Shown piece after piece: positions 36,461 to 44,010 of a DNA stretch of 47,589 nucleotides. Below the pieces are notes generated by a model, which saw only the letters and a list, made by a program, of their open reading frames with translations, was not told the DNA's origin and made no database searches. Origin of the DNA: Clostridiales bacterium (GTDB lineage: Bacteria; Bacillota; Clostridia; Peptostreptococcales; Anaerovoracaceae); the NCBI GenBank assembly GCA_012841165.1, contig DUVF01000051.1, forward strand, positions 1-47,589, read 5' to 3'. The translations under genes and the position numbers were made by a program. Numbering within the stretch: the first letter of the stretch is position 1; every line of letters starts with the position of its first letter.

Positions 36461-36486
36461 ATATTCTTTGCCAAGAATAATCAAGC

Positions 36487-36530
36487 AACGATATTGACAA
36501 CAAAATACGATGATATTATATTAAATACTA
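36487..36530 (+). promoter_or_regulatory. duplicated 44-nt promoter, copy 1 (surface protein)
   Basis: -35 TTGACA (36494-36499), a 17-bp spacer, -10 TATATT (36517-36522). All 44 bases are identical to 39920-39963 in front of the molybdate-type transporter, and flanking bases are also similar. ACGATATT and ACGATGATATT form a direct repeat around the spacer and could be an operator. Confidence 0.85.
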
Positions 36531-36584
36531 ACGGGCTATTATCCTTATAAAAAAATAATGACGATTAATCAAGAGGAGGATAAG

Positions 36585-39374
36585 ATGAGTTTCTTAAAGG
36601 AAAATAGTAGAAGGAAACAGGGGAAACATCTGCTGGCATATTTTCTGGTAATATGCATGCTGTTTTCCTGTTTTATGTCCATGCCGTCTGCGGCCTATGC
36701 GGAAACAGATGCAAATGCCTGGCAGCAGAACGGGCTTGGGCTGAATGGATTAACCCCTGAAAATGTAGTGGTATTTGCAGGAAAGACCATGGATAAGTCC
36801 AAAATGGGCTTCCTGAAAAACTACTATTATCTAACCGAAGATGAATTAAATGATCTTCGTGTAAATGATAACGGAACACGGGCATACAGTTATTTCGGCG
36901 AAGAGGCCTGGTTATCTAATTGTTTGTATTCATCCAGCGATGATCATGGGGTACAGGAGTGGAGATACAATTGCCTGACCGGTATCGATCTGAAAAAGGC
37001 TTTTACCGGCCTGGGTGTGGAAACTTCTCCGGCAATGAGCGTCAGGGTTAAATCTACCGATGGAATGTCTTATGTGCTGTCAAATGCATTTGATGAGTCA
37101 AGATATTATTTTAATCCCAAAGGGGAAAAAAGTGCCACGCCGGTGGCACCAATATTAGCATTGAAGCGTACTACTATTTCAACCCTGATCGCACCGGCTT
37201 CGGATTCAACTCTTGAAGCTCCTACGACTGCCGCAGATACATATCAGCCACTATTTGCCTATGGTCAGCAGACTGTCAATGAGTGCAACAACTGCAGTTT
37301 TGTAAAAACCGTTAACAGCGTGGTGGCTGGAACAGAAGATGTTGCCCTGACCGTTAAACGGAACGGGAAGAGCGACATGATGATGTCGATTTCGGAAATA
37401 ATAAGGCAGGGCGTCTATAAGGCTGATTATCATTTCTATTCGAGCGGTTCAGCTGATATCAGAACCCACAAACTGACCGGTATACCGCTTACTAAACTGC
37501 TCAATGCCATGGGGGCAAGTGTGGAAAGCGGCCAGAGCGTTCAGCCGGCTACCAGCGACGGTTATCAAGTTAGCGCCATACCGGCGGCAGATGTCGGCAA
37601 ATGGTTCGTGGCCTACGATGCTAGGGAAGACGGAAGCCAGGTAAGCAATAATACGGCCTTAAGGCTATACGGCCCCGGTCAATTTGGCAATCAGATGATC
37701 GTCAAGCATCTTACCACTCTGACTGTAACCGGTGAAGCCGCGCAAACTGGCGGCAAGAAGCAAATAGGTGGAGATGCAGAGAACGCGGTTTTCTATATTG
37801 CAGTCAAAGAAAACGCTAACAGTGAGACCAAATACTACTATTACACCAGGGAAGAACTGGAAGCCATCAAAACCGATGAATCCTTTACATTCAACAACCA
37901 CGGCCGGATAATGACAGTAACGGCCAGGGGAGCATTGTTAAAGGATCTGCTTGATAATCTGGACGGAGCAACCATCACCGACAACATGATAGTCCAGTAT
38001 GCGGAAGCAGATGGCTATCATGCGAATCAAAATACTGCCATAGAAAATTCTAAATACAAAGACAAGGTCGCCTGGCTGACGCAGCCGCATTTTAACGGCA
38101 GCATCACTGTTGCGCCGGCCAAAACCATTATCAGCTACGGAATCAATGAAAAATACAAGAATCCGGATGAAAACAACGTCAACGATCCTGAGGGAGTGTT
38201 TAAGGATGCGGACAACAACAGCGGCTATCTGAGAGCATACAGGGAGACCGGCTCCGGTCAGGATGATGCTAATATCGGCGGAGCCAACGCCACCGTGATC
38301 AAGTACCTGATGGGCGTTGTGGTGAGCTATGACGGAGCTCAGTTTAGCGGAAAAGACGGTTACACCTTAAAGGCAGTTAGCGATAAAAATCCTGACCTGT
38401 CCATCATCGCCGACCAGAAAGTAACCGGACTGATGCCGGGAATGCAGTTTGCGGTCAAGGCGCCTTCTGTGGTGAATTCCGTACTGGCCGCTGGAGAACC
38501 TGCCCATCGGACGATAACGGTGGAAGAAGGGGCAACTCAGACCGTCACCTTCAAGTACACGGAGCAACCATACTTTTATGTAACTAAGGGAGGCATCACC
38601 AACTACACCTATACAGACCTGGTCAAGGTTTCGGTGCAGCTGCCCGACAAGGATGCGAACACCGCCCCCTATGGATATTCCCGGCCGATGTACTACAGAT
38701 ACAACGGGGTCTGGCTGGCCGATCTGATTGGCGCTGAAATCATGAATGACATAAGCGTGACCGGATTTAACATCATCGCCAAGGATGGCTCTAAGACAGC
38801 TATCAGCAAGGAAGATGTGACCAAGTATTTTGTAGCTTACAACAACACCCAGTCCAAGGCCAGCACCAACATTCCGGAAGGAAAGCGGGTGACTAAGACC
38901 TATCAGGACGCCAAGATCATCATTCCTGATGAAGGTGTGAACATCACCGGCTCAGCTGCTAATGACTACACCAGCGCCGGCAAGGATGTAGGCGTACTGG
39001 TGGCGGAAGCTGAAGGCATTGTGGCCGATACCGAGACTGGCGGCGATGGCAGCGGTGGTGGCGAAGTTGCCGCTCCGACCGTAAGAGGGATAGCCTTAAA
39101 GGACGCTCCGAGCAAGGTTGAATATAACCAGGGCGATGCTTTGGATCTGACCGGATTAAAAGTGACCCTGACATATGCAGACGGAAGCAAGCGGGATGTT
39201 GCCTATGCTGATTTCGCCAACTATGGTATAAGCGTGAAACCGAACAATGGCGCTATATTGGGCGCGAACGATCAAAAAATCGTGGTCACAGTAAGCGGTA
39301 AAACCATCGAGTTAGCTATTACTGTGAACCCCGTCGCAGGTGCAAAAAAACCCACAAACCGGAACAAACGGTGA
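36585..39374 (+). CDS. large secreted repeat protein with Ig-like domain (0-frame product)
   Basis: 929 residues from the ATG at 36585, which has AAGAGGAGG upstream (an earlier in-frame ATG at 36558 would place that site inside the gene). A signal peptide (LLAYFLVICMLF to AAYAE) is followed by about four related modules of 150-200 residues. Each carries a Y-rich strand with Y(Y/L)T(E/R)(D/E)EL, a GxxLxxLLxxLG-like segment (GIPLTKLLNAMG), and Y-rich ends. They loosely resemble the sulfite-oxidase/molybdopterin fold but without a convincing cofactor cysteine. A Big_3-type Ig domain (about 830-920) ends the frame at KKPTNRNKR. The S-layer anchor is in the -1 frame just behind. Located upstream of a molybdate-type transporter with the same promoter. 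Confidence 0.8.
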   Translation: MSFLKENSRRKQGKHLLAYFLVICMLFSCFMSMPSAAYAETDANAWQQNGLGLNGLTPENVVVFAGKTMDKSKMGFLKNYYYLTEDELNDLRVNDNGTRAYSYFGEEAWLSNCLYSSSDDHGVQEWRYNCLTGIDLKKAFTGLGVETSPAMSVRVKSTDGMSYVLSNAFDESRYYFNPKGEKSATPVAPILALKRTTISTLIAPASDSTLEAPTTAADTYQPLFAYGQQTVNECNNCSFVKTVNSVVAGTEDVALTVKRNGKSDMMMSISEIIRQGVYKADYHFYSSGSADIRTHKLTGIPLTKLLNAMGASVESGQSVQPATSDGYQVSAIPAADVGKWFVAYDAREDGSQVSNNTALRLYGPGQFGNQMIVKHLTTLTVTGEAAQTGGKKQIGGDAENAVFYIAVKENANSETKYYYYTREELEAIKTDESFTFNNHGRIMTVTARGALLKDLLDNLDGATITDNMIVQYAEADGYHANQNTAIENSKYKDKVAWLTQPHFNGSITVAPAKTIISYGINEKYKNPDENNVNDPEGVFKDADNNSGYLRAYRETGSGQDDANIGGANATVIKYLMGVVVSYDGAQFSGKDGYTLKAVSDKNPDLSIIADQKVTGLMPGMQFAVKAPSVVNSVLAAGEPAHRTITVEEGATQTVTFKYTEQPYFYVTKGGITNYTYTDLVKVSVQLPDKDANTAPYGYSRPMYYRYNGVWLADLIGAEIMNDISVTGFNIIAKDGSKTAISKEDVTKYFVAYNNTQSKASTNIPEGKRVTKTYQDAKIIIPDEGVNITGSAANDYTSAGKDVGVLVAEAEGIVADTETGGDGSGGGEVAAPTVRGIALKDAPSKVEYNQGDALDLTGLKVTLTYADGSKRDVAYADFANYGISVKPNNGAILGANDQKIVVTVSGKTIELAITVNPVAGAKKPTNRNKR

Positions 39375-39784
39375 CCAGAGCCGAGTTTACCGTAATGCTG
39401 GCCCGGGCTTTCGGCTTGCAGCCCGGTGAAGGCAAAACATTTGAAGATACGGCAAACCATTGGGCACAAAGCCTGATCTCTGCGGCCAGAGATGCGGGAA
39501 TCGTCAGTGGATCAAGTGATCAGCAGTTTGATCCCGATGTGCCTATCACTCGTGAACAGATGGCGGTGATGATCGTTAAGGCGATCAAGGCTGATGCCTC
39601 CGGTGGAGCATTGACCTTTAAGGATAAGGACAGCATATCCGCATGGGCGAGGCAATCCGTAGCCAGCGCTGTTGCAAATGAACTGATGTTTGGTTATCCT
39701 GATCAGACCTTCAGACCTTTGGACAATGCTTCCCGGGCAGAAGCTGTATCGGTTATCGCCAGAGCTTTGCAAAAAAAACAGTAA
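39350..39784 (+). CDS. out-of-frame S-layer homology (SLH) anchor of the surface protein
   Basis: In the -1 frame relative to the preceding gene, from the end of an A7 tract, this reads THKPEQTVTRAEF, the second half of an SLH repeat, then two complete SLH repeats (with TREQ and SRAE). SLH repeats bind cell-wall pyruvylated polymers. The anchor lacks the first half of SLH repeat 1, so either a deletion created the junction or the gene was always joined by frameshifting at A_AAA_AAA. A GTG at 39371 overlapping the TGA is another way to start it alone, but without a signal peptide that would be useless. I count this as the C-terminus of the same surface protein. Confidence 0.75.
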   Translation, partial: THKPEQTVTRAEFTVMLARAFGLQPGEGKTFEDTANHWAQSLISAARDAGIVSGSSDQQFDPDVPITREQMAVMIVKAIKADASGGALTFKDKDSISAWARQSVASAVANELMFGYPDQTFRPLDNASRAEAVSVIARALQKKQ

Positions 39785-39817: not shown

Positions 39818-39852
39818 ACAGCGAGGGCCGGATTCAATCCGGCCCTCGCTGT
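39818..39852. terminator. strong terminator after the SLH region
   Basis: Arms 39818-39834 and 39836-39852 are perfect 17-bp GC-rich complements, followed by GTTTGTTTT. It ends the surface-protein unit. Confidence 0.9.
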
Positions 39853-39919
39853 GTTTGTTTTCCCATTGACCTCCAATTGCCTTCTTGCGATTCGTCGTAG
39901 ATATATATAATAATCGGGT

Positions 39920-39963
39920 AACGATATTGACAACAAAATACGATGATATTATATTAAATACTA
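39920..39963 (+). promoter_or_regulatory. duplicated 44-nt promoter, copy 2 (molybdate-type transporter)
   Basis: Identical to 36487-36530. -35 at 39927-39932 and -10 at 39950-39955, about 62 bp before the binding-protein ATG. Confidence 0.85.
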
Positions 39964-40016
39964 AAGGTTATTATTCTTATAAGAAAATAATGAGGTTAGA
40001 GTTAGGAGAGACAGCA

Positions 40017-40838
40017 ATGAAACGGAAACAGATGTTGTGGAGCACTTGTTTGATGATTTTGATTTTGAGCCTGGCAGTGTCAGCTTGCGGAAAGAACGAT
40101 TTGGAAGCAGACTCTGATCAGGATAAGCCAGCGGAACAGACAGAACTGCAATATGAAGGGGAAAGCCTGCTCGTCTACAGCGGCGCTGGTTTGAGTAAAG
40201 CGATGGACGCGGTTGCCGCTGCCTTTGAAGAAAAGTATGGTGCAAACTTACAGATGAATTATGCTGGTTGTGCTCAATTGTTAGGTCAGATGGAAGTCAA
40301 CAAAACGGGAGATGTGTTTGTGGGCGGTTCGCTGAACGACGCCGATATTGCTTTGAAGAAGGGATTTACGGATGATACGGTCAATCTTGTATATCATATT
40401 CCGGCAATCGCCGTACCGAAAGGAAATCCGGCGGGCATAAAAACTCTGGCTGATATGGCAAAACCCGGCGTCAAACTGGTCTTAGGCGATGCGGAATCCA
40501 ACGCGATCGGCAAAAAGGGAGAGAAAATCTTTGAAAAGAACGGTTTGACGGAAGCGATCCATGCAAATGTGACAGCCAGAGACGCCACCGTCAACGAAAT
40601 TGTCACGCATATCGGACTGAAACAAGGCGATGCCGGCCTGGTTTGGGAAGACAACGGAGTCGGCGCCAGCGATATTGAGATCATTACTATACCTGAAGAG
40701 CAGAACGTGATCGACCAGGTGCCGGTCTGTGTGCTCAACTTCTCTGAAAAAAAGGAATTGGCTCAGCTTCTGGTTGACTTCATGTGTTCGGACGAAGGCA
40801 AAGCCATCTTCATCGAATATGGTTTTAAACCGCTTTAA
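40017..40838 (+). CDS. modA: molybdate/tungstate-type ABC substrate-binding lipoprotein
   Basis: 273 residues from the ATG at 40017 (TTAGGAGAG upstream). Signal peptide with lipobox VSAC. The mature part matches the ModA/WtpA family: LLVYSGAGLSKAMDAVAAAF, VPKGNPAGIKTLADMAKPGV and GDAESNAIGKKGEKIFEKNG, a two-lobed oxyanion-binding protein. It is the first gene of a tight operon with a permease and an ATPase. Molybdate, tungstate, and other oxyanions cannot be separated by eye; the gene symbol is by family. Promoter identical to that of the surface protein. Confidence 0.85.
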   Translation: MKRKQMLWSTCLMILILSLAVSACGKNDLEADSDQDKPAEQTELQYEGESLLVYSGAGLSKAMDAVAAAFEEKYGANLQMNYAGCAQLLGQMEVNKTGDVFVGGSLNDADIALKKGFTDDTVNLVYHIPAIAVPKGNPAGIKTLADMAKPGVKLVLGDAESNAIGKKGEKIFEKNGLTEAIHANVTARDATVNEIVTHIGLKQGDAGLVWEDNGVGASDIEIITIPEEQNVIDQVPVCVLNFSEKKELAQLLVDFMCSDEGKAIFIEYGFKPL

Positions 40839-40844
40839 TGCCCG

Positions 40845-41690
40845 ATGAGGACGAGGAGAAAAAGACGAGGGAATCGGCTGTTTCGAGGCTTGATCGGCCT
40901 TGCTCTGTTAGCTTTATTTTTGTTATACTTCACGGCTCTGGCGAACATCGTCTGGAAGGGGCTGGGAGGCTTGCTGAGCAATGTGGCGGATCCGGAGATT
41001 GTTTTTGCCATCCGATTAAGCCTGTTCACGTCGGTTACAGCGACTTTAATATGTCTGCTGTTCGCTCTGCCGGCGGCATATGGTCTCGTTCGTTTTCGGA
41101 TTCCCGGGAAAAAAGGGATCCAGATCCTGCTGAATATTCCCATAGCACTGCCGCCTTTGGTATCAGGCGTAGCCCTGCTGATGCTGTTTGCGACAACCCC
41201 ATTGGGTGAAACGCTGGCAAGGTGGGGCTTGCAGTTTGTGTTTTCTGTCAGGGGAATCATTTTAGCGCAGTTTTTCATTATAACGCCATATATGATCCGC
41301 ATATTAAAAGCGGCATTTGAGGACATTGATCCCCGGCTGGAGTTTGTCGCTCGAACATTAGGCTGTACCCAGTGGCAGGCATTCTACAAGGTAGCTCTGC
41401 CGATTGCAAAAAATGGAATTTTAGCTGCCCTGGTAATCAGCTGGTCGCGCGCGATCGGCGAGTTCGGCTGCGCGTTGATGGTGGCAGGGGCTACTCGCCT
41501 GGTCACCGAGACATTGCCGGTCGCGCTATATTTGAACATGTCGATCGGCAATTTAGATACAGCGATGGGTGCAGCCACCTGGCTGATTCTGATTTCGATC
41601 GGATCGCTGTTCATATTTGAATGGGCCGGCGGCCGGTCAGGGCCGGCTTCCCGTGCCAATATCAAAAAGGAGGTTGCCGGTCGTCTGTGA
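40845..41690 (+). CDS. modB: molybdate-type ABC permease
   Basis: 281 residues with about six membrane segments. The coupling loop LEFVARTLGCTQWQAFYKVALP (read as two overlapping pieces) is the EAA motif, and WSRAIGEFGCALMVAGATR is close to the ModB consensus (ARAIGEFGAT). Very basic N-terminus (MRTRRKRRGN). There is almost no gap to the binding-protein gene and no separate ribosome site, so it is translationally coupled. Expected to dimerise and bind two ATPase subunits. Confidence 0.9.
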   Translation: MRTRRKRRGNRLFRGLIGLALLALFLLYFTALANIVWKGLGGLLSNVADPEIVFAIRLSLFTSVTATLICLLFALPAAYGLVRFRIPGKKGIQILLNIPIALPPLVSGVALLMLFATTPLGETLARWGLQFVFSVRGIILAQFFIITPYMIRILKAAFEDIDPRLEFVARTLGCTQWQAFYKVALPIAKNGILAALVISWSRAIGEFGCALMVAGATRLVTETLPVALYLNMSIGNLDTAMGAATWLILISIGSLFIFEWAGGRSGPASRANIKKEVAGRL

Positions 41691-42829
41691 TACGTCTTGA
41701 TCGGGTTTCGAAAATACTGGGGAAGTTTCATCTGCGTGAAATTTCGCTGGAGATAGGCGAACATGAATATTTTGTGCTTCTGGGTCCGACTGGATCCGGC
41801 AAGACGGTGATTTTAGAGATGCTGTCGGGCCTCTATCCGCCGGATACGGGTGAGATTTGGATTGCCGGGCGGAATGTCACGGAAATGTCGCCGGAGGAAA
41901 GGAAACTGGGCCTTGTCTATCAGGACTATATGCTGTTTCCGCATCTTAAGGTGCGTGGGAATATTCTGTTTGCGTTAAAATTACAAAAAACTGATGCGGC
42001 GGTGGCTGAACAGCGACTGCAGGAAGTGACAGAGATGCTGGGTATCGGCGGGCTTTTGGAAAGACATCCGGCGACTCTCAGCGGCGGCGAGCAGCAAAGA
42101 GTGGCCTTGGCCAGGGCTTTGATAAACAAGCCCTCGGTCTTGCTTTTGGATGAGCCTCTCAGCGCTTTAGATCCGCGCAGTAAAGAAATTTTTCAGCAGG
42201 AGCTGAAAGCTATTCACCGGGATACCGACTGCACTATCTTGCACATTACCCATGATTTTAATGAAGCTTATCTGTTGGCAGACCGGATCGGCGTGTTGCA
42301 TAAAGGGCGACTGCTGGAAACCGGTACACCTCAGGAAATCTTTCAGATGCCGGAGTCAATGCTCACCGCGGAATTTGTCGGCATGGAGAATATTTACGAA
42401 GGAACTGTTTTCGTAGACGATAGCGGAGCCGGCATCCAAATCGGGCAGGTTAAAATCCGGACCGTGCTCCCGCGTACCATGAGAACGCAGATCGGAACAG
42501 CGGAGCCGGTGCATGATTCAAAGAATTCAGGTATAATATCAAAAGAGCCGAGCGAAAGACGCACCGATAAAGTACGGGTGGCGATTCGCTCAGAAGATGT
42601 AATCATCAGCCGGGAAGCGTTCGCAAGCAGCGCCCGTAACCGCTTGCCGGCCCGCGTCCTCTCGCTGGATAATTACGGCGCCTTCATTAAACTGACATTG
42701 GACGCCGGCCTGCCGCTGAAAGCGATCATCACAAAACAGGCGGTTGAGGAACTTGAAATTGCCGAAGGGCAGGATGTCTGGGCGACATTCAAGGCTTCGG
42801 CGGTGCATGTGTTTGAACAGGAGAAGTAG
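41687..42829 (+). CDS. modC: molybdate-type ABC ATPase with C-terminal TOBE domain
   Basis: 380 residues from the GTG at 41687, overlapping the permease stop, with AAGGAGG about 12 bp upstream; an ATG at 41621 lies inside the permease gene and is rejected. Walker A GPTGSGKT near residue 32, signature LSGGEQQRVALARAL near 128, Walker B LLLDEPLSALD near 147, switch His in HITHDFNEA near 187. The C-terminal 70 residues (ARVLSLDNYGAFIKLTL) look like a TOBE/MOP oxyanion-binding domain. A hydrophilic insertion around 260-285 is extra. Together with the two previous genes it forms a complete importer. Confidence 0.92.
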   Translation: MIRLDRVSKILGKFHLREISLEIGEHEYFVLLGPTGSGKTVILEMLSGLYPPDTGEIWIAGRNVTEMSPEERKLGLVYQDYMLFPHLKVRGNILFALKLQKTDAAVAEQRLQEVTEMLGIGGLLERHPATLSGGEQQRVALARALINKPSVLLLDEPLSALDPRSKEIFQQELKAIHRDTDCTILHITHDFNEAYLLADRIGVLHKGRLLETGTPQEIFQMPESMLTAEFVGMENIYEGTVFVDDSGAGIQIGQVKIRTVLPRTMRTQIGTAEPVHDSKNSGIISKEPSERRTDKVRVAIRSEDVIISREAFASSARNRLPARVLSLDNYGAFIKLTLDAGLPLKAIITKQAVEELEIAEGQDVWATFKASAVHVFEQEK

Positions 42830-42831
42830 GA

Positions 42832-43557
42832 ATGGATCTGATAAAAAGCGCGCAGGAAAAACTTGCAGAATTGATAGCAGAGCAAGGTTGGTTAAAAGAA
42901 CCGATTCGGGTGGTGACTGCCCGCAGCCTGACAGTGGAGGAGGCTATAGGCCGCCCGGAGCGAAACGACTATCCAATTCAGAAGGGTAAAGAAGTAATGC
43001 TGGAGGCTGAATTCAGGGGCGCCAAAGGGCAGGCTTTTACCGATCAGCCGGGAACTTTTGAGGGTGATATAGAGGAAGTAATAAGCTTGTCTTTGCATAA
43101 TAATTTCGAACGGGCTGTTTTAATTGCGACCCTGAATGCGGTGCTGCGCTCACAGGGCAAGATCACTGCGACGGTGCATTGCCGCGATGAAGAACCAGGC
43201 CGTTGCGCGCAAAAGCTGACAACGCATATTCGCGAACGCTTTGGCAATCCCCGCATTGCCTTTATTGGTTTGCAGCCGGGAATGGTTGCCGCTCTAAGTC
43301 AGGAATTTGAAATACGGGTGGTCGATCTTGACCCGGACAATATCGGGAAAATCAAAGCCGGAGTGCTCATTGAAGATGTTTCTCATACCGAAGAGATCCT
43401 GGAGTGGGGCGATATCATTCTGGCGACCGGCTCTACTTCGGTGAACGATAGTCTGGCCGGCTTGCTCGGCTCAAAGCCGATTATTTTCTATGGCGTAACT
43501 ATTGCCGGATTGTCGTATCTGCACGGATTTGAACAATATTGTCCCTGTGCTCATTAA
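42832..43557 (+). CDS. DUF364-type putative heavy-metal chelation protein
   Basis: 241 residues, cytoplasmic. An N-terminal DUF4213-like part (about 1-110) and a C-terminal DUF364 part with AFIGLQPGMVAAL, RVVDLDPDNIGKI and ILATGSTSVNDSLAGLL (the TGST motif). The family often lies next to metal and oxyanion transporters (family knowledge); the real function is unknown, with suggestions of metal or metallocofactor binding. The C-terminus has CPCAH, a possible metal site. It starts 2 bp after the ATPase stop and belongs to the operon. Confidence 0.85.
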   Translation: MDLIKSAQEKLAELIAEQGWLKEPIRVVTARSLTVEEAIGRPERNDYPIQKGKEVMLEAEFRGAKGQAFTDQPGTFEGDIEEVISLSLHNNFERAVLIATLNAVLRSQGKITATVHCRDEEPGRCAQKLTTHIRERFGNPRIAFIGLQPGMVAALSQEFEIRVVDLDPDNIGKIKAGVLIEDVSHTEEILEWGDIILATGSTSVNDSLAGLLGSKPIIFYGVTIAGLSYLHGFEQYCPCAH

Positions 43558-43571
43558 TTAATAATTAATGC

Positions 43572-43619
43572 TTGACAAGGGAAGATGGATTGAGGTATAT
43601 TAAGTTAGCCGAGGTAAAC
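43572..43619 (+). promoter_or_regulatory. promoter and DtxR-type operator of the repressor gene
   Basis: -35 TTGACA (43572-43577), 18-bp spacer, -10 TATATT (43596-43601). TTAGCCGAGGTAAAC (43605-43619) is an imperfect DtxR-family palindrome covering the start site, and its GAGG (43611-43614) also serves as the ribosome site for the ATG at 43624. Binding would therefore block both transcription and the leader, an autoregulation design. Confidence 0.75.
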
Positions 43620-43623
43620 AATT

Positions 43624-44010
43624 ATGAAATACAGCGAATCAATCGAAATGTATCTGGAGACTATCCTTCTGGAGGAAGAGCGCCATGGCCATGCTCATGT
43701 AGCTGAGATTGCTGAGTTGTTAGATGTCAAGATGCCCAGCGTCACAAAAGCCATGGATCAGCTGAAGAATAACGGATTGATTGATAAGGAGACCTATGGC
43801 ACGATTACTCTGACAGAAAAAGGGCGGGCCGTAGCGCACCGGGTCTATCATTCTCATCAGATATTGATTCGCTTTTTAGAAAAAACCTTGCACTTATCTC
43901 CGGCAGAAGCGGCGGAGAATGCCTGCCGCATTGAACATGTGGCAACAGAGGAGTTACTGGCGGCTGTAGAACGATATCTGGCGGAAAGTGAAAAGAATAC
44001 TGAATCATGA
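43624..44010 (+). CDS. DtxR-family metal-dependent repressor with iron-type ligands
   Basis: 128 residues: N-terminal winged helix (about 1-65) and metal-binding/dimer domain (66-128); no SH3-like third domain, like MntR and short clostridial members. The ligand positions are Met9, Cys101, Glu104 and His105 (SIEMYLETI and NACRIEHV). DtxR/IdeR iron sensors have Met10, Cys102, Glu105, His106, while MntR has Asp8 and Glu102, so iron sensing is more likely than manganese. It sits behind a molybdate-type operon but has its own promoter and operator. Confidence 0.88.
   Translation: MKYSESIEMYLETILLEEERHGHAHVAEIAELLDVKMPSVTKAMDQLKNNGLIDKETYGTITLTEKGRAVAHRVYHSHQILIRFLEKTLHLSPAEAAENACRIEHVATEELLAAVERYLAESEKNTES

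Follow-up and report, generated by a model that had tools for sequence, protein, structure and literature searches.

A surface protein gene of a Clostridiales bacterium with its SLH anchor in the -1 frame, most likely an ordinary mutation and not a regulated switch

The DNA analysed here, called the window, is a stretch of 47,589 nucleotides from a Clostridiales bacterium. It encodes an exported surface protein in what is referred to as the 0 frame, and this is followed in the -1 frame by the remainder of an SLH trimer (repeats SLH1 to SLH3). The features of the locus are as follows:

36476–36561, + strand: promoter block with TTGACA-17-TATATT at 36494–36522, about 91% identical to the block upstream of modA
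36574–36579, + strand: Shine-Dalgarno sequence AGGAGG, 5 nt upstream of the ATG, read from the sequence
36585–39374, + strand: 0-frame coding sequence of the exported surface protein, 929 aa, ATG at 36585 and TGA at 39372–39374
36585–36701, + strand: signal peptide with a basic N-terminus, a hydrophobic core and an AYA cleavage-like site, recognised by eye from the translation
37317–37754, + strand: sulfite-oxidase-fold/PruR-like domain, aa 245–390 (Pfam, AlphaFold, Foldseek)
39108–39326, + strand: Big_3 Ig-like domain, aa 842–914 (Pfam, 22.3 bits, cut-off 21.2)
39302–39371, + strand: overlap of about 23 codons in which the 0 and -1 frames are both open and where any frame change must fall
39344–39350, + strand: A7 tract in A_AAA_AAA phase, which joins the linker after Big_3 to the remnant of SLH1
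39353–39436, + strand: SLH1 remnant in the -1 frame (HKPEQTVTRAEF...), first ~28 residues missing (alignment, family survey)
39437–39565, + strand: complete SLH2 in the -1 frame (Pfam)
39614–39745, + strand: complete SLH3 in the -1 frame (Pfam), with the stop at 39782–39784
39818–39852, + strand: intrinsic terminator-like hairpin, 3' of the SLH frame

The exported core contains a sulfite-oxidase/PruR-like domain, at aa 245–390. Here, Pfam gives a match to Oxidored_molyb (E = 1e-4, 22.2 bits, under the 24-bit cut-off) that spans only the second part of the Pfam model. An AlphaFold model built with orthologues (pLDDT 79.5) matched SUOX-family enzymes and the pterin-binding protein PruR in Foldseek; the PruR match, which covers the whole domain length with a TM of about 0.57–0.64 both ways, is the closest in size. 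The promoter block of 85 bp has a second copy at 39909–39993, before modA, and no further copies elsewhere in the genome. Its presence at both places suggests, on sequence grounds, that the gene is co-regulated with molybdate uptake. Taken together, the SUOX/PruR fold and the block in common with modABC point to a putative molybdate-linked, cofactor- or pterin-binding surface protein. At 40017–44010, modA, modB and modC are followed in a row by a DUF364 gene, with a putative role in heavy-metal chelation, and by a metal regulator of the DtxR type, which is a candidate for acting on the shared promoter.

The 0 frame ends in ...NPVAGAKKPTNRNKR*, shortly past the Big_3 domain, as the original prediction had placed it: the TGA follows 929 codons. 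The -1 frame, bounded by stops at 39299 and 39782–39784, opens at 39302, and its translation (KKTHKPEQTVTRAEF...) is recognised by Pfam as SLH (E = 2e-27), comprising two complete repeats and the tail of a first. The codon usage score per codon is +0.27 for the SLH frame versus -0.70 and -0.75 for the other frames, and usage favours the 0 frame upstream of the A7 tract and the -1 frame downstream. The SLH coding in the -1 frame is thus beyond doubt, and the earlier statements that this frame runs on into SLH repeats and that gcA_AAA_AAA lies in the correct phase are both borne out, the heptamer falling where the two frames overlap. No terminator-like hairpin was found between the 0-frame and -1-frame stops; the only one follows the SLH frame, which places the SLH part in the same transcription unit. 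The signal peptide and the Big_3 and SUOX-fold domains are in keeping with an SLH-anchored surface protein. Three complete in-frame SLH repeats, which would complete this picture, are lacking, as the trimer is out of frame and its first repeat is short.

A GTG at 39371 overlaps the TGA (GTGA), and stop-start coupling at this point could in principle yield a separate SLH protein of 137 aa. While the overlap exists, no good Shine-Dalgarno sequence accompanies it, and the product would begin inside SLH1 and carry no signal peptide, so that it could not reach the wall. This explanation is scarcely credible.

Of the roughly 44–55 residues of SLH1, the first ~28, comprising the F.DV..HWA helix and the loop, are missing. 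The earlier suggestion that a deletion took half of the repeat is therefore right as to the loss and slightly low as to the share, which is somewhat over half. The gap was placed by aligning the trimer with others from this genome and from relatives, and the remnant starts with T/F-KPEQ-[VI]TRAEF, immediately at the A tract. The eight SLH trimers of the same genome that entered the alignment are all complete. Trimers were also surveyed in 60 genomes of the family, where the best-scoring matches were listed and broken trimers are under-counted; among the ~150 family trimers so listed, the window locus alone starts at profile position 28, the others starting at positions 1–7. With the start of SLH1 missing, even a perfect -1 shift would produce a damaged anchor.

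How much function such an anchor might retain can be judged from SpaA, where the primary groove, G2, involves the Arg of the TRAE motif of SLH1, a Gly of SLH2 and a Trp of SLH3 (PMC6081394). Reading of the sequence shows the equivalent residues to be all kept in the -1 frame (VTRAEF, GIVSG and ISAWA), and partial binding of the wall polymer by the truncated trimer is conceivable. Folding is made doubtful by the absent SLH1 helix, and a single-sequence structure model of the truncated SLH part is poor (pLDDT 51).

Relatives of the protein were identified by an alignment-based scan of named genomes, which yielded seven loci; an earlier contig scan with the whole protein as query had zero matches. 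The closest orthologue, designated L125, is a protein of 1307 aa encoded by Syntrophomonas wolfei subsp. methylbutyratica JCM 14075, a cultured organism outside the family first searched. L125 is 76% identical to the window protein in the core, over the best segment. The two proteins have the same exported core and related SLH trimers, that of L125 being 61% identical to the window -1 frame. They differ in that L125 has all three SLH repeats complete and in frame, has a ZU5-like region in the place of Big_3 (recognised by eye; Pfam gave no match), contains two FIVAR domains and lacks the 85-bp block. Three complete in-frame SLH repeats are also found in L126 and L127, from a Pelotomaculum and a Bacillota draft genome, and in L130, whereas L128, L129 and L131 have no SLH. 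At the junction point, none of the seven loci changes frame or has an A tract. The orthologue comparison, which had been proposed as a check on the switch, thus speaks against it, as the anchors of L125, L126, L127 and L130 are complete and in frame. Such intact in-frame copies in relatives are a feature that the locus has in common with frameshifted, pseudogenised surface genes.

The heptamer itself was compared with its background. It is the gene's sole run of exactly seven As, in the context gcA_AAA_AAA_ccc. Across the window, 28 A7/T7 runs were observed versus 27.8 expected. In a sample of 272 long genes from 354 kb of the same genome, the 87 exact A7 runs are distributed over the three phases as 33, 30 and 24, with 24 in the A_AAA_AAA phase, which is neither clearly avoided nor favoured in the sampled genes. 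The chance of an in-phase exact A7 falling within the 23-codon overlap is ~0.5%, and that of any A run of at least seven ~2%, both figures being post hoc. By itself, the heptamer is weak evidence, and the association of run and overlap would be equally expected had the A run been a mutation hot spot.

One use of the heptamer would be a programmed -1 ribosomal frameshift at A_AAA_AAA, giving a secreted form of 929 aa and an anchored form of 1066 aa in a set ratio. The locus resembles dnaX and the IS-element frameshifts (A_AAA_AAN) in having a canonical heptamer of the same class, in phase, and a longer -1 product; furthermore, both frames are coding-like and the terminator lies 3' of the SLH frame. 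It differs from those systems in that there is no stimulator and no conservation, and in that the second frame starts in a truncated domain. Downstream folds are ordinary (z = -0.25 and -0.62, for structures other than pseudoknots), the sole upstream SD-like sequence, AGGTG, ends near the tract, off the usual ~10 nt spacing, and Rfam has no match in the window. Without a stimulator, heptamers in E. coli give frameshifting just 2–10 fold over ~0.055% (PMC4066793), so that the unaided shift here, if E. coli rates are assumed for the window organism, would be at most about half a percent. As in-phase heptamers are common in the same genome and no relative has the arrangement, we regard programmed frameshifting, one of the outcomes originally listed, as very improbable.

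Alternatively, the slippage could take place during replication, the tract changing between A7 and A8 and the protein alternating between release and partial anchoring. Surface proteins are typical products of phase-variable genes and A runs are mutable (PMC3711429); like the genes of this poly-A class, the window gene encodes a surface protein and has its A run at the frame change, inside the overlap. Unlike them, it has a tract of background length and frequency, seven As being short, that is absent from this place in the relatives. In addition, the on-form would be without most of SLH1. Phase variation, which had also been put forward, is accordingly improbable, and the title of "switch" given to the locus has no positive support, even though the sequence facts behind it are sound.

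The main rival to an ordinary mutation, though on the whole unlikely, is that the break is a consensus or assembly error and that the organism has a normal in-frame trimer, a stretch or a single base being missing from the draft at the junction. Consistent with this, the genome is a draft of 74 contigs that is 94% complete, and the SLH frame is well preserved. However, a plain homopolymer error leaves the ~28 missing residues of SLH1 unexplained. When A/T runs of at least 7 were subjected to a frame-break test (both strands, 354 kb), 3 of 348 passed, and the other two of these sit at the ends of adjacent genes, which argues that there is no systematic homopolymer error in the genome. A chimeric join through a repeat was considered as well and rejected, as a search of the genome with the junction region found no second match at the DNA level.

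The age of the break can be estimated from the comparison with S. wolfei. Differences in the -1 frame SLH part fall on codon positions 1, 2 and 3 as 44, 31 and 77, with a dN of 0.32 and a dS of 1.81, the values for the protein core being 0.15 and 1.88. From these substitutions, the SLH part appears to have been under protein constraint during most of the divergence. Since coding constraint is still visible in the -1 frame, the break is not old, and the third-position bias rules out an old pseudogene. The dN/dS would fit a recent break and would be equally compatible with continued low-level translation.

From the two frames, the gap in SLH1 and the intact in-frame anchors of the relatives, we infer that a single, recent deletion left the SLH anchor out of frame and that the protein is exported unanchored, an explanation we hold to be probable, if modestly so. 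The gap and the frame change lie at one point, so one event accounts for both, and a deletion removing part of SLH1, the third of the outcomes originally listed, fits best. DNA would have been lost between the linker after Big_3 and the middle of SLH1, putting the rest of the trimer one frame out, and the A7 tract would be the junction or a bystander and no device. Transcription would still pass through the SLH part up to the terminator, whereas nearly all translation would stop at 39374. The protein would then leave the cell without a wall anchor and the SLH remnant would be a young dead tail, although A_AAA_AAA may slip at a low level without stimulation and give traces of a protein with partial anchoring. 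The case is built on a single draft genome assembly. The ancestral junction and its age cannot be read from an intact copy of the same species, as none was found, and because L125 has a different domain where Big_3 stands, the ends of the deletion cannot be placed.

A similar event is known from Paenibacillus larvae genotype ERIC I, in which splA, an S-layer gene with SLH, carries a one-base frameshift that is fixed (PMC3355101). Both cases involve an SLH surface gene, a small frame-changing mutation and intact close relatives. They differ in that the splA break lies within the S-layer protein gene and abolishes the protein (PMC3355101), whereas the break in the window parts an otherwise complete exported protein from its C-terminal anchor, with part of SLH1 gone. 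A further frame change, in an SLH relative at L124 (G192:C24:26000-34000; 48% identical over the SLH part), occurs just before ITRAEF of SLH1. It was examined as a possible conserved break and rejected, the protein being unrelated, the run a short C run and SLH1 complete; this change is probably an independent mutation or an error.

An ordinary mutation, and not a regulated switch, is the most likely reading of the window locus. A device specific to this lineage, with slippage at A7 (of DNA or ribosome) that would release or partly anchor a molybdate-coregulated pterin- or cofactor-binding protein by means of a trimmed SLH trimer with one groove, is unlikely; were a switch real, it would represent frame-controlled release of an SLH-anchored protein. 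The locus thus carries a caution, that in a genome rich in A runs an in-phase heptamer beside an out-of-frame domain is insufficient to claim a switch, and it is the orthologues that settle cases of this kind. The more useful lead is the exported sulfite-oxidase/PruR-fold protein, which occurs patchily in syntrophic anaerobes and has its promoter block in common with the molybdate transporter operon. The gene is present in 1 of 54 genomes of the S. wolfei family, a distribution that suggests horizontal transfer. In the genome of L131 (G132, L123:9506-13972), homologues of the surface protein adjoin genes for a Crp-type regulator and for XdhC, which acts in molybdenum-enzyme maturation, and this neighbourhood is a second link to molybdenum. 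In the record that contains L130 (G173, L066:1991-6540), the two halves of the window protein are encoded by a pair of neighbouring genes that both have a complete SLH trimer of their own, and this arrangement is a gene fusion or fission.
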